This document shows positions 20,046 to 37,030 of a stretch of DNA of 53,488 nucleotides, piece by piece. Numbering within the stretch: position 1 is the stretch's first letter; each line of letters opens with the position of its first letter. Both the position numbers and the translations under genes were made by a program. The DNA lies in contig JAFVWS010000003.1 of the NCBI GenBank assembly GCA_017501545.1, positions 1 to 53,488 of the forward strand, given 5' to 3'. The DNA is from Clostridia bacterium. Lineage in GTDB: Bacteria; Bacillota; Clostridia; Oscillospirales; CAG-272. The notes below the pieces were generated by a model that was not told where the DNA came from, did not search any database, and saw only the letters and a program-made list of their open reading frames with translations.

Positions 20046-20075
20046 AAAAAAGCAAGCCATTTGGCTTGCTTTTTT
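20046..20075. terminator. Bidirectional terminator between pot operon and ttcA
   Basis: The stem AGCAAGCC/GGCTTGCT (20051-20058 with 20063-20070) is flanked by A and T runs. The outermost copy of the ttcA tail ends within its T-run on the minus-strand side, so this is probably the native ttcA terminator. Confidence 0.92.
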
Positions 20076-20169
20076 ATTCCTCACATAAGTTTGATTTTTT
20101 TAAATCCTTACGCCTTTTCTTTTCGTCATTATCTATTTGGTCAACGTGAAAGCCATCGACCTCACCCAT
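20074..20169 (-). pseudogene. Outermost displaced copy of the ttcA 3' end
   Basis: This is a 31-codon frame whose sequence repeats the ttcA C terminus (GEVDGFHVDQIDNDEKKRR then KDLKKSNLCEE) but with a different last few residues. It begins with ATG created by the upstream palindromic element, which also supplies AAAGGAG four bases before, so a short peptide could be made. The stop codon abuts the terminator, so this copy probably marks the original gene end. Changes from the tail in use are synonymous or Ile-to-Val. Confidence 0.65.
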
Positions 20170-20455
20170 TGGCTCCTTTATGTAAGGGAGCTGTCAGCTT
20201 GCTGACTGAGGGATAGAAAATTATTCAGCGCTATTTGATTTTTTTAAATCCTTACGCCTTTTCTTTTCGTCATTGTCTATTTGGTCAATATGAAAGCCAT
20301 CTATCTCACCCATTGGCTCCTTTATGTAAGGGAGCTGTCAGCTGTGCTGACTGAGGGATAGAAAATTATTCAGCGCTATTTGATTTTTTTAAATCCTTTC
20401 GTCTTTTCTTTTCATCATTGTCTATTTGGTCAATATGAAAGCCATCTATCTCACC
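20088..20455. repeat. Tail-plus-palindrome array at the ttcA 3' end (3 tails, 2 palindromic elements)
   Basis: Three copies of a 79-bp ttcA tail (20088-20166, 20232-20310 and 20377-20455) recur with a period of about 145 bp. Between them lie two copies of a double-hairpin element (about 20167-20221 and 20311-20366). Its stems are GGCTCC...GGAGC and GTCAGC...GCTGAC, followed by TGAGGGATAGAAAA. The innermost tail is the one used by the gene. This fills the 320-bp gap between potCD and ttcA. Confidence 0.9.
20221..20313 (-). pseudogene. Second displaced copy of the ttcA 3' end
   Basis: This is a 30-codon frame repeating the TtcA C terminus identically in protein sequence, from GEIDGFHIDQ to KKSNSAE. 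Three silent base changes separate it from the tail in use. The preceding palindromic element provides AAAGGAG and an ATG in frame, so it could in principle be translated as a highly charged peptide. More likely it is a duplicated gene end. Confidence 0.65.
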
Positions 20456-21157
20456 GCGCTGAATAGCACCTAAAATTCTATGATAAAGCCCGTGATGCTC
20501 CTTTTCAAATATGGCCAAATAGTCCTTCATTTTTGCGCGCTCAGTATTGCCATCGGCAGGACATTTGGTTTCAACTACTGGAAGGACGGCACCCTTTGCA
20601 AAGCTTTTAATTTCCTTTTCTGGCGCATAAATAAGTGGCCTTATCATAGTTAAATCCTTGCGTGAAAGGTATGTAACTGGTCTAAAGGCACCAATTCTTC
20701 CCTCAAAGAAAAGATTTAGCATAAATGTCTCAACAACGTCATCATAATGGTGCCCAAGCGCAAGCTTGTTACAGCCAAGCTCCTTGCACGCATCGTGAAG
20801 CGCCCCACGTCTCATTCTTGAGCAAAGAGAGCAGGGGCTTTTTTCCTCTCTTACCTTGAAAATTATCTCGTAAATTTGGGTTTTAATTATGTGATATTCA
20901 ACGCCCAAATCTTGACACAGGTCGGCTATTTTTGAAAAATCCATGCCTTCAAGACCCATGTCAATTGTAATGGCAACTACGGTGTAATCAATGCCTAAAA
21001 CACGCTTTAGCTTGGTAAGGGCACAAAGCAATGCAAGAGAGTCCTTGCCACCTGAAACACCAACGGCAATTCTGTCGCCGTCTTCAATCATTGAATATTC
21101 CTCTACAGCCTTTCTCGTTCGGCTGAGTAGTCTTTCAATATTGTCAAATTCCTTCAT
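20366..21157 (-). CDS. ttcA: TtcA-family tRNA 2-thiocytidine synthesis protein
   Basis: PP-loop ATP pyrophosphatase that activates tRNA for sulfur insertion. It is 263 residues. SGGKDS (35-40) is the PP-loop. The CxxC pair C109/C112 in CSLCSRMRRG and C199 in ETKCPADGN are the three cysteines that hold the iron-sulfur cluster in TtcA. The C-terminal 30 residues are hydrophilic (NDEKKRRKDLKKSNSAE). They are encoded by a segment that is repeated twice more downstream, so the end of the protein may have been replaced. Whether the modified base is 2-thiocytidine in this organism is inferred from the family. Confidence 0.88.
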   Translation of the reverse strand: MKEFDNIERLLSRTRKAVEEYSMIEDGDRIAVGVSGGKDSLALLCALTKLKRVLGIDYTVVAITIDMGLEGMDFSKIADLCQDLGVEYHIIKTQIYEIIFKVREEKSPCSLCSRMRRGALHDACKELGCNKLALGHHYDDVVETFMLNLFFEGRIGAFRPVTYLSRKDLTMIRPLIYAPEKEIKSFAKGAVLPVVETKCPADGNTERAKMKDYLAIFEKEHHGLYHRILGAIQRGEIDGFHIDQIDNDEKKRRKDLKKSNSAE

Positions 21158-21779: not shown

Positions 21780-21813
21780 TAGTATAACATAAATAACCTT
21801 TAACTGCAATAAA

Positions 21814-21840
21814 AAAGTGGCAATATTAATTTGCCACTTT
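21814..21840. terminator. Terminator between the amidase gene and spoVT
   Basis: The stem AAAGTGGCAA/TTGCCACTTT (21814-21823 with 21831-21840) has A and T runs on both sides, so it can work in both directions. The outermost spoVT tail copy stops at 21846, six bases away, marking the likely original spoVT end. Confidence 0.9.
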
Positions 21841-21845
21841 TAAAT

Positions 21846-22264
21846 TTATCCCTCAAATTGCCTACCTAAGAATGTTGCTGCGAAATGGCCTCCTTTGTAA
21901 AGGGAGGGGGACCACCAGCAAACGTACTTTAGGTTAGGTAATCACCAGTAGGTGGTGGAGGGATTGTCAAACCTTACCCCTCAAATTGTCTGCCTAAGAA
22001 TGTTGCCGCGGAATAGCCTCCTTTGTAAAGGGAGGGGGACCACCAGCAAACGTACTTTAGGTTAGGTAATCACAGTAGGTGGTGGAGGGATTGTCAAACC
22101 TTACCCTTCAAATTGTCTGCCTAAGAAGGAAGCTGCGAAACAGCCTCCTTTGTAAAGGGAGGGGGACCACCAGCAAACGTACTTTAGGATAGATAATCAC
22201 CAGTAGGTGGTGGAGGGATTATCAAACCTTACCCCTCAAATTGTCTGCCTAAGAATGTTGCTGC
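21846..22264. repeat. Tail-plus-palindrome array at the spoVT 3' end (4 tails, 3 palindromic elements)
   Basis: Four 36-bp copies of the spoVT tail lie at 21846-21881, 21974-22009, 22101-22136 and 22229-22264 with a period of 127-128 bp. Each encodes AATFLGRQFEG-stop (one copy has S for T). Three 91-92 bp elements separate them. Each holds the palindromes CCTCC..GGAGG and CCACCACC..GGTGGT and the end sequence GGTTTGA. The last tail (22229-22264) belongs to the intact gene. The array fills the 450-bp gap between the amidase gene and spoVT; no other gene is visible there. Confidence 0.93.
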
Positions 22265-22771
22265 GGTTTGAATCAGCTTTGCCTCTGTTGAATGTGGGTC
22301 AAGAGTTACGCCTTCCTCACTTGTCACACAAGCAACAGCGCCAATTACGTCACCCTCGGAAATAATAGGCATAGCATACTTAACGTAGCCACTTGCACCA
22401 TCACAAACGTTTATTTTTGCATTTTCCTTGCAAACATATAGACTGCGTCCGTCCATAATGGACTCAAAATCCTCAGTAAGCTTTTTGTCATTATACTCTT
22501 TTTTAGACACTCCTGCCGACGAAATTACAACGTCACGGTCGGTCACCACCACGCTCATAGAGCAAATTTTATTCAGGGTATCAACATACTGCGCCGCAAA
22601 AGAGGCAAGCTCACCAATAGGGGAGTACTTTTTAAAAATAACCTCACCCTCACGGTCAGTATATATTTCAAGTGGGTCACCCTCACGAATTCTCATTGTC
22701 CTTCTAATTTCCTTTGGAATAACTACACGTCCAAGGTCATCAATTCTTCTAACAATACCAGTCGCTTTCAT
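22229..22771 (-). CDS. spoVT: Stage V sporulation protein T (AbrB-type regulator)
   Basis: DNA-binding regulator of forespore genes. It is 180 residues, the usual length. Residues 1-50 are the swapped-hairpin AbrB domain (MKATGIVRRIDDLGRVVIPKEI), and residues of about 55-178 form the GAF-like domain. The start follows AAGGAG. It is the best evidence in the window that the organism makes endospores. Its last 12 codons lie in the innermost copy of the tail array, and a seven-base inverted repeat (22222-22228 with 22265-22271) brackets them exactly. Confidence 0.95.
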   Translation of the reverse strand: MKATGIVRRIDDLGRVVIPKEIRRTMRIREGDPLEIYTDREGEVIFKKYSPIGELASFAAQYVDTLNKICSMSVVVTDRDVVISSAGVSKKEYNDKKLTEDFESIMDGRSLYVCKENAKINVCDGASGYVKYAMPIISEGDVIGAVACVTSEEGVTLDPHSTEAKLIQTAATFLGRQFEG

Positions 22772-35294: not shown

Positions 35295-36971
35295 ATGAAA
35301 GAATTATCTAAGGAAATTCTAAACACATATAATCTTTGGCGCACTGATGAGCGCTTTGATAAGGAAACCAGAGACGAGCTTAATAAGCCAATGTCAAATG
35401 AGGAAATTGAGGATCGCTTCTGGCGCGACCTTGAATTTGGCACAGGTGGACTTCGTGGCGTTATGGGCGCAGGCACCAATAGAATGAATAAATATATAAT
35501 TAGAAAGGCTACAAAGGGCTTTGCTAATTATCTTATAAACAAGTACGGCGAAGACGTTAAAAGGGGCGTTGCTATCGGCTACGACTCAAGAAATAATTCT
35601 GACACCTTCGCACGTGAGGCAGCGCTTGTAATGTGCGCAAGTGGTATTCCAACCTACTTATATGCATATCTTGTTCCAACACCAACTCTTTCCTTTACTG
35701 TAAGAGAGCTTGGCTGTGTTGGTGGTATTGTCGTTACTGCAAGCCATAACCCAAAGGAATATAACGGCTATAAGGTATACGACGAGGACGGCTGTCAGGT
35801 TCTTATCGAGGACGCAAATGCAATTATTGAATACGTAAACGCAATTACAGATATTCCAGCAATTGAGGTTGCAAATGAGGAAGAGGCAAGAGAGGCTGGA
35901 CTTTTAAAGACAGTTGATGACTCAGTTTACACAAGCTTCTGTGAAAGCGTTAAGAAGCAAGCGCACGACGTTGGTGAAAAGAGTGCAAAAATCATCTATA
36001 CACCACTTCATGGTACAGGAAACGTGCCGGTAAGGCGCGTGCTTAGCGACCTTGGCTACAATGTAACAGTAGTTAAGGAGCAGGAGGAGAAAAACGGCAA
36101 CTTCCCAACAGTTGTTTCACCAAACCCGGAAAATGCTGAGGCACTTTCAATCGGCTGTAAGCTTTGCCAGGAGTTAGGTGCAGACTTAATCCTCGGCACC
36201 GACCCAGACTGTGACCGTGTTGGCATTGCAGTCAATACCAAGGACGGAATGAAGCTGTTCACAGGTAATCAGGTTGGCGCACTTTTAGTTGACTATGTAA
36301 TTAAGATGAACAAATCAGAATTAACAGAGAAGTCAACAGTAATTAAAACAATCGTAACAAGTGAGCTTGGTGCTATTATCGCTAAGCAAAACGGCTTAAG
36401 AGTTATTGAAACCTTAACAGGCTTTAAATTCATTGGCGATAAAATGAACGAGTTTGACAAAAAGGGCAATGGAAGGTTCGTTATCGGCTACGAGGAAAGC
36501 TACGGATATTTAGTGGGCACACACGCAAGAGATAAGGACGCAGTTGTTGCATCTATGCTCATTTGTGAAATGGCTTGCTACTATAAAAACCAAGGCAAAA
36601 CTCTTGTAGACGTAATGGAAGAAATTTATCAAACCTACGGCTACTTCCTTGACAAGCTTGACTCATATACCTTAAAGGGTATTGACGGCGTTGAAAGAAT
36701 TCAAGCTATTATGAAACAGATGAGAGAAAAGGGCAAGGCTCTAATGCCAAATATTGCAGTTGTTAATGACTACACAGTAGGAATTGACGATTTACCAAAG
36801 GCAGACGTACTAAAATTTGTCTTTGAGGACTCCTCTTGGATTGCAATTCGCCCATCAGGAACTGAGCCAAAAATCAAGGTTTATTACTCTGTAAAGGGCG
36901 CAAATAAGGAAGACGCCTCAAAGGTACTCGAATCCCGTCGTGCTGTAATCAACGAAATAATCAATGCATAA
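35295..36971 (+). CDS. Phosphoglucomutase/phosphomannomutase (PgcA-like phospho-sugar mutase)
   Basis: Alpha-D-phosphohexomutase, 558 residues, the long PgcA/PGM2-like form. Phosphoserine S150 is in TASHNPKEYNGYK. The metal loop is GTDPDCDRVGIA (about 295-306), the sugar loop is EESYGYLVG, and the phosphate-binding end is IRPSGTEPKIKVYY. It links glucose 1- and 6-phosphate for wall or storage polymer synthesis. It is the last gene of the operon; a palindromic element and a shared terminator follow. Confidence 0.94.
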   Translation: MKELSKEILNTYNLWRTDERFDKETRDELNKPMSNEEIEDRFWRDLEFGTGGLRGVMGAGTNRMNKYIIRKATKGFANYLINKYGEDVKRGVAIGYDSRNNSDTFAREAALVMCASGIPTYLYAYLVPTPTLSFTVRELGCVGGIVVTASHNPKEYNGYKVYDEDGCQVLIEDANAIIEYVNAITDIPAIEVANEEEAREAGLLKTVDDSVYTSFCESVKKQAHDVGEKSAKIIYTPLHGTGNVPVRRVLSDLGYNVTVVKEQEEKNGNFPTVVSPNPENAEALSIGCKLCQELGADLILGTDPDCDRVGIAVNTKDGMKLFTGNQVGALLVDYVIKMNKSELTEKSTVIKTIVTSELGAIIAKQNGLRVIETLTGFKFIGDKMNEFDKKGNGRFVIGYEESYGYLVGTHARDKDAVVASMLICEMACYYKNQGKTLVDVMEEIYQTYGYFLDKLDSYTLKGIDGVERIQAIMKQMREKGKALMPNIAVVNDYTVGIDDLPKADVLKFVFEDSSWIAIRPSGTEPKIKVYYSVKGANKEDASKVLESRRAVINEIINA

Positions 36972-36977
36972 CAAAAA

Positions 36978-37030
36978 GGCTTCCCCTCGAGGGGAAGCTG
37001 TCGCGTGTCGCGACTGATGAGGTGTAAAAA
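36978..37030. repeat. Solitary double-hairpin intergenic element after the phosphohexomutase gene
   Basis: Two adjacent palindromes, GCTTCCCCTCGAGGGGAAGC (36979-36998) and GTCGCG-TGT-CGCGAC (37000-37014), are followed by TGATGAGGTGTAAAA. The layout (two stems and then a GAGG...AAAA end) matches the element in the ttcA array, with different stem sequences. Here no copy of the upstream gene tail accompanies it. Confidence 0.8.

Follow-up and report, generated by a model that had tools for sequence, protein, structure and literature searches.

An array of repeated gene ends at a Clostridia spoVT gene, probably left by a miniature element related to DUF559 nuclease elements

The spoVT gene of a Clostridia bacterium (Oscillospirales, CAG-272) ends in four copies of its own tail (T), separated by three copies of a short element (E). 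We consider it probable that this array began as a single insertion of a miniature element and was amplified later, that E is the terminal module of small elements with the layout rev(E)-DUF559-E, and that the repeated tails were made by duplication of the target. The array is not unique and opens onto a larger system. The window referred to below is the whole stretch of DNA that was analysed, 53,488 nucleotides of contig JAFVWS010000003.1, and the source genome (GCA_017501545.1) is an assembled draft of 49 contigs.

Four tails and three elements at the end of spoVT

The gene was identified as spoVT by its domain content, and the array has the following parts in the window:

22229..22771, minus strand: spoVT gene, an open reading frame with the Pfam domains SpoVT_C and MazE_antitoxin; tail T1 makes up its last 36 bp (22229-22264)
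22137..22228, minus strand: E1, solo element, 92 bp
22101..22136, minus strand: T2, tail copy, AASFLGRQFEG-stop
22010..22100, minus strand: E2, solo element, 91 bp
21974..22009, minus strand: T3, tail copy, AATFLGRQFEG-stop
21882..21973, minus strand: E3, solo element, 92 bp
21846..21881, minus strand: T4, tail copy, taken as the original gene end; a terminator-like repeat comes next
21808..21846, minus strand: terminator-like inverted repeat at the end of T4, with arms at 21831-21846 and 21808-21823

A preliminary description of the window, made from its letters, had reported four tails and three elements at 127-128 bp spacing, and the layout was recovered as such: the 36-bp tails are spaced by 128, 127 and 128 bp, the elements measure 91-92 bp, and a terminator follows the last tail. 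Reading the tails confirmed that all four encode AA(T/S)FLGRQFEG-stop. The E copies are identical at 86, 87 and 89 of 92 alignment columns, and TRF detects the array with a period of 128, 3.3 copies, 92% matches and a score of 735. The terminator-like inverted repeat begins directly at the stop of T4, supporting the proposal that the copy adjoining the terminator is most likely the original 3' end. The same description had called E a double palindrome, which fits the spoVT copies weakly, as their DNA folds no better than shuffles (z = -1.1, -0.1 and -0.1), and fits a sister element in the second array clearly (z = -4.2). A match of the Rfam L20-leader family to part of the array was rejected as sub-threshold (E 0.66, 20.1 bits against 58.7).

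That the array is an assembly artefact, as might be feared of a draft in 49 contigs, is hardly credible, for its copies differ from one another, and other assemblies, complete E. coli genomes among them, show the same arrangement.

A second array at a PP-loop gene

About 1 kb from spoVT, at 20074-20455, a second array holds three tails of a PP-loop ATPase gene, which we take to be TtcA-like, and two elements of 54-55 bp. A further E lies elsewhere in the window:

20366..21157, minus strand: PP-loop ATPase gene (Pfam PF01171); its last 90 bp (20366-20455) are tail T1
20311..20365, minus strand: solo element, 55 bp
20221..20310, minus strand: tail copy T2
20167..20220, minus strand: solo element, 54 bp
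20074..20166, minus strand: tail copy T3, ending SNLCEE-stop, then a terminator-like hairpin
36970..37022, minus strand: further solo element, of another subfamily, with no detectable tail copy

T1 and T2 end in SNSAE-stop, and SNLCEE-stop is found in T3 alone, beside the terminator-like hairpin; the final codons of T1, unlike those of T3, are taken as element-side sequence. At the PP-loop gene of a related genome (G022), the first tail enters the element and ends in element-encoded residues, and the second copy retains its own end. An element can thus shorten a tail and supply a new stop, which is unlike the behaviour expected of an element that carries a perfect copy of the tail.

Tail-E-tail loci across the source genome

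Plain DNA search was insufficient for finding further E in the source genome, the spoVT array as query returning only itself and one 24-base match, and degenerate patterns were required. In the sampled stretches, 22 E share one general plan, TCCCTC(C/A)GTC-hairpin-GACACCTCCC-hairpin-GGAGGC or CCTCATC-type variants; a strict hairpin finder detected few of them among 12 hairpins of all kinds. We then scanned gene tails over 429 open reading frames in the window and 20 further stretches (about 450 kb), a biased sample in that five of the six other contigs were chosen because of pattern matches. Eleven open reading frames scored above 50, against a shuffled-control maximum of 45. The tail-E-tail layout was found at six loci: PP-loop, histidine kinase, DUF559, jag-type, spoVT and mgsA (the kinase, jag-type and mgsA names are our assumption; the spoVT, DUF559, PP-loop and MGS-like domains are not). 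Five of the 11 matches were set aside as a decayed asd-type tandem duplication, three apparent neighbouring paralogues and one antisense frame at the jag-type locus.

The flanks of E were compared at the DNA level as well. Direct repeats at a score of at least 43 flank 10 of the 22 E, these from just four loci; among controls, cross-locus pairs reached at least 40 in 2 of 400 and inverted comparisons reached 43 in 1 of 22, and the mgsA (30) and kinase (36) flanks fall below the line of 43. The 12 of 22 sampled E that lack a flanking repeat at score 43 count against the model favoured here. E is oriented outward from the gene in 7/7 tail or head sets of the source genome, a regularity that simple target duplication leaves unaccounted for and that likewise counts against it.

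Several of these loci have features of their own. In L143 (G000:C21, 18520-19244), both the tail and the head of a DUF559 gene are copied, three of each being visible, with E between them; the head copy consists of the ribosome site and start codon. Head scans gave mainly paralogues, and it was inspection by eye and the flank-repeat analysis that showed the head copies of DUF559. In L134 (18568-18620) and L126, tails that presumably belong to a rubrerythrin-like gene adjoin E with no intact gene seen alongside, a state that movement of an E-tail unit or loss of the gene might leave. Near position 7440 of L144, the tail and terminator of a gene that we assume to be asd-type are tandemly copied with no element, and the copies are decayed; this is an ordinary duplication for comparison.

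Relatives with and without elements

A spoVT protein match was obtained in 28 of 29 genus genomes searched. Among the 26 loci readable at the gene end, 23 are single-tailed (two of them with short downstream sequence, 163 bp in G015 and 248 bp in G006) and three have extra tails: the source genome with three elements, G025 with two and G022 with one. Relatives with zero, one and two elements, which the preliminary description had suggested looking for, therefore exist, with tail numbers to match. The E copies of the three genomes differ, yet they meet the tail at an identical site (the E|T2 junction). In G025 (C53/C12) and G014 (C37/C5), spoVT is apparently split, codons 23-180 lying in a longer frame and codons 1-35 on another contig, possibly through a larger insertion in the gene.

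The PP-loop gene is tail-E-tail in the source genome, G022 and G025 and has a single tail in 14 other stretches that hold the gene (19 searched); of 28 mgsA loci read, those of the source genome and G025 have the layout and that of G022 does not. A scan of 346 open reading frames in genus stretches found tail-E-tail restricted to the spoVT and PP-loop genes of G022 and G025. In 102 other Clostridia loci (574 open reading frames), the layout appeared only in G022 and G025 among the peptides listed; controls in that scan reached 92, and weaker matches were disregarded. The motif used found no second tail in 80 spoVT loci taken from records of named genomes; at least seven of these loci repeat genus genomes, and one (L097) was unmatched. 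In G017, one query matched 74 times, for the most part over short E-like stretches, and two other genus members gave 5 and 2 matches, so E copy number is strongly variable among relatives.

Ordinary tandem duplication of a 127-bp unit, with no mobile element, would account for the constant period and the near-identity of the E copies, and growth of the array may well have gone that way. It is very improbable as the origin of the layout. It does not fit the single-element T-E-T of G022, the related E dispersed at other genes or the empty alleles, and the plain duplication at L144 looks different, with no E and with decayed copies. As a full account it is refuted by the dispersed E together with an empty/filled pair of alleles in E. 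coli, described below.

E resembles the ends of DUF559 elements

Of the 29 genus genomes, 22 have DUF559 genes (PF04480), with 65 matches listed, and inverted E modules were seen to enclose no gene other than DUF559, as at L121 (Pfam E 6.9e-32). The elements so formed are about 450-500 bp long, with DUF559 as their sole gene between inverted ends. Both sides are present in 26 of 31 genus loci, and 20 of these 26 have inverted repeats around the gene at a score of at least 30, the outer-flank control reaching at most 25; among these 20, L184 matches through a hairpin other than E. Aligned to DUF559-element ends, the solo E of spoVT, the PP-loop gene and mgsA score 46-74, against maxima of 29-37 in 20 shuffles each, the weakest being the spoVT E of the source genome (46 against 37). 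Each solo E aligns to a single end module; the miniature copies do not retain both inverted ends.

Direct repeats across the DUF559 element were scored at 26 loci (29 taken, three cut off). Repeats of 20-134 bp at a score of at least 40 were found at 11 of them, with a control maximum of 30; at three of the 11 (L171, L183 and L137), the bounds set by script for the element leave a gap of 59-194 bp to the left copy, which counts against an insertion of the kind proposed, and the L183 repeat includes E-like sequence. Some of the repeats are gene tails and others are non-coding (L180, L184). The flanking copies are exact at two insertions, over 42/42 bp at L179 and 20/20 at L184, so the duplicate there derives from the target. 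Duplications range from 8 to about 134 bp, in place of one short fixed length, and a few extra bases lie between E and the right copy. Both features are unlike classical transposons and count against the model favoured here.

These loci bear on the origin of the tail. The preliminary description had proposed that a block of tail and element is inserted and the gene end restored each time, much as integrases do at tRNA genes; as a model, this amounts to a small element with a gene-end copy of its own and site-specific integration. Retention of the gene end each time and use of the same spoVT site in three genomes would suit such an element. We nevertheless regard it as quite improbable, since similar E stand beside different tails and beside the non-coding repeats of L180 and L184, which means that the tail derives from the target and not from the element, and DUF559 is the sole gene seen between inverted E modules.

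Empty and filled sites

Target duplication with insertion was read most directly in E. coli. A solo E separates pstA from pstB in strain O157:H7 TB21-1 and is absent from JNEC-KY172 and NIID080884. The filled allele holds 84 bp plus an 8-bp duplication of ACACGGTT, and the PstA end KNKHG-stop is retained, the inserted bases completing the stop. In a 30-row sample across 5,383 matching records, 12 rows had the full 501-bp query, 17 covered 83% of it (409 bp) and one lacked the locus; the alleles read are those of the three named strains. The duplicate here is target sequence, which strains the model of an element-borne tail, and the idea that the gene end is restored on insertion is borne out. 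An integrase-like mechanism is unnecessary, and the restored-end idea stands.

Further pairs come from the genus. A 131-bp segment is present once in G010, a 90% complete genome with no DUF559 match, and twice in G007, around a DUF559 gene; the history could also be read in reverse, with DUF559 lost between the repeats. The solo E in this segment is preceded by 18 bases resembling the last DUF559 codons, which suggests that solo E are left-truncated copies. At a locus that we take to be a dnaJ-type gene, an element lies between tail copies in G012 and G008, and a single tail is found in G021, G002 and G024 (260 bp read). Together with the relatives that carry zero, one or two elements and the pstA-pstB pair, these empty alleles favour insertion over pure tandem duplication, as had been proposed at the outset.

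E. coli also provided a case of loss. Its ycjD is a DUF559 gene that ends tail-E-tail, strain DH1Ec104 included, and a 1.2-kb query containing ycjD matched 3,333 of 5,426 genomes at coverage of at least 80%. In strain 2017-01-4CC, one 106-bp tail-E unit has been lost between identical parts of T1 and T2. Its ycjD is annotated as incomplete, so the case demonstrates tail-tail recombination, not a clean return of the old tail to use, and this counts against the fuller model. No inverted E lies within 250 bp of E. coli ycjD, and no clean empty site was found, the two E. coli strains read without ycjD holding other genes there. At ypfG-tkt, the E. coli alleles differ by replacement with no duplicated tail, which again counts against insertion with target duplication, and the ypfG and zntA alleles compared were uninformative on insertion.

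Silent divergence between tail copies

The observation that nearly all differences between the spoVT tails are silent holds as mostly silent, and it extends beyond this gene. Across adjacent pairs in 12 tail sets from several genes and genomes, 84 nucleotide changes fall in synonymous codons and 29 in non-synonymous ones (67 and 19 once a loose rubrerythrin-like set is left out), where about 20% synonymous would be expected of random changes. These counts cover the alignable part alone (132 of 156 bp in the histidine kinase, whose final residues differ), and most sets were found via protein similarity, which biases them toward conserved copies. The G025 spoVT tails differ by 12 silent changes, and the source mgsA tails by seven silent changes and one S/A codon. 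In both the source genome and G025, the unread second mgsA tail has a common S-to-A codon that is absent from both first tails, other differences being silent. The outermost old dnaJ-type tail of G012 is decayed, indicating that unread tails do decay over time.

The coding constraint and the silent divergence in G025 raise the prospect that some tails may come from other lineages. In its full form, this alternative has T1 and E imported from a diverged donor by homologous recombination or homing, with T2 as the recipient's own end and arrays built by repeated imports. The divergence within single loci (12 changes at G025 spoVT, seven silent and one S/A codon at source mgsA) speaks for it, as does the E|T2 junction common to spoVT of the source genome, G022 and G025. 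Beyond the source mgsA T2, moreover, the sequence resembles what follows the gene in G022, where it lacks E, and T2 differs from the G022 tail at 7 bases and T1 at 9, a small difference by hand count. We consider imports unlikely as the general explanation, since the exact flanking copies at L179 and L184 point to duplicates made from the target and tail-tail recombination could preserve the coding constraint without imports. Turnover by such recombination is one possible reason why extra tails look coding, and import from other lineages another.

A functional account, in which the array is a tail switch or terminator array retained for useful alternative ends or RNA hairpins, could draw on the same constraint on unread tails and on the S-to-A codon common to the second mgsA tails of the source genome and G025. 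We find it quite improbable: the spoVT tails encode nearly one peptide, copy number varies from 0 to 3 among relatives, and the spoVT E do not fold better than shuffles.

A proposed route of insertion by a Vsr-like nuclease

In the insertion model, E would correspond to the terminal module of small rev(E)-DUF559-E elements, and on insertion the stretch of target between a position X within the gene and a position Y at its stop or close to it would be duplicated, over 36 bp at spoVT and 8 to about 134 bp elsewhere. The gene would retain an end, T1, before E, and its old end, T2, would stay behind E beside the native terminator; where Y falls before the stop, E would provide a new stop and C-terminus. 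From T-E-T, recombination between tails would gain or lose T-E units, giving T-E-T-E-T-E-T, on the assumption that arrays grow the way they shrink. The earlier argument that plain duplication leaves no bare tail fails, because once target duplication has made T-E-T, duplication of T-E always leaves a bare T.

The most likely mechanism, judged from the family of the DUF559 protein, is that this Vsr-type nuclease nicks or cuts the target and so drives insertion, and that host repair synthesis then copies E in, duplicating the stretch between the breaks. The variable left end and fixed right end of solo E would reflect left-truncated copying. By sequence, DUF559 is related to the Vsr-like PD-(D/E)XK nucleases: 33 aligned proteins conserve a D and an E-x-D-G..H motif at 90% or more, and the nearest solved structure is the endonuclease-like PDB 3hrl (E 1e-13). 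The Caulobacter protein VsrA, with the same DUF559 domain, is reported to be responsible for an SOS response in a methyltransferase mutant and is proposed to nick DNA; the role put forward for it in the text consulted is in mismatch repair, not in the movement of an element (PMC12907096). Among open-licence papers, we found no description of DUF559 as a mobile element or of an element of this kind.

Sampling beyond the genus gave a mixed picture. Across the phylum sample, 43 of 149 genomes have PF04480 matches, and 23 of the 50 matches listed lie in frames longer than 1,000 aa, which makes these proteins of another kind. In a genome of another family of the phylum (L229), repeated DUF559 tails with a different E were seen by eye. 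Among plasmid DUF559 loci, 6 of 9 have inverted palindromic ends (two in Deinococcus and one each in Azospirillum, Sphingomonas, Sinorhizobium and Novosphingobium). Counting against a general rule, inverted ends are absent at the other 3 of 9 and at two E. coli and one Photobacterium loci (0/3), and target duplication apart from E itself was found at 0 of the 9 plasmid loci.

It is a real possibility, if short of probable, that DUF559 genes with outward palindromic ends form a widespread and undescribed superfamily of transposable elements whose sole enzyme is a Vsr-like nuclease. Such elements would insert through two distant nicks in the target and repair synthesis from the fixed right end, resembling the target-primed synthesis of LINEs with DNA as the template. 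Copying between two nicks would give both the long, variable target duplications and the left-truncated solo copies.

Known systems and meaning

The system is akin to the REP/BIME repeats with their RAYT (TnpA_REP) enzymes (PMC2817692). These are likewise dispersed short palindromic repeats, with the enzyme gene between inverted copies and with gene-less solo repeats. In the genus, inverted palindromic repeats flank the DUF559 gene and also occur solo, which is not the arrangement at the E. coli ycjD loci. It differs from REP/RAYT in its enzyme, a DUF559 PD-(D/E)XK nuclease and not a Y1 (HUH) transposase, and in duplicating 8 to about 134 bp of target at gene ends, and the odds are fair that it merits a separate class.

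MITEs and small insertion sequences share inverted ends, target duplication and short gene-less derivatives with these elements; unlike them, the elements here show no DDE transposase, have long variable duplications and leave solo copies that match one end. Freestanding homing endonuclease cassettes such as T4 mob/seg are similar in having one nuclease gene, in lying beside conserved genes and in leaving gene function intact, and differ in that inverted palindromic ends, target duplications and unrelated sites are found here. The Sinorhizobium RIME are two-palindrome intergenic repeats of about 100 bp, and the pSymB DUF559 gene of Sinorhizobium is bracketed by a 114-bp two-palindrome inverted repeat. 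No attachment tail carried by the element itself, as in integrative elements that restore a gene end, was seen here.

Because the laboratory strain DH1Ec104 carries ycjD with tail-E-tail, the system is directly testable in E. coli. If the superfamily reading is true, such elements would have left, as remnants, many of the palindromic repeats found 3' of genes in gut Clostridia, rhizobia and E. coli. If the model is right, it would supply a partner enzyme and a mechanism for a class of common bacterial palindromic repeats, would account for duplicated gene ends and odd element-encoded C-termini, and would add a Vsr-type (DNA-repair) nuclease to the few enzymes able to drive transposition.
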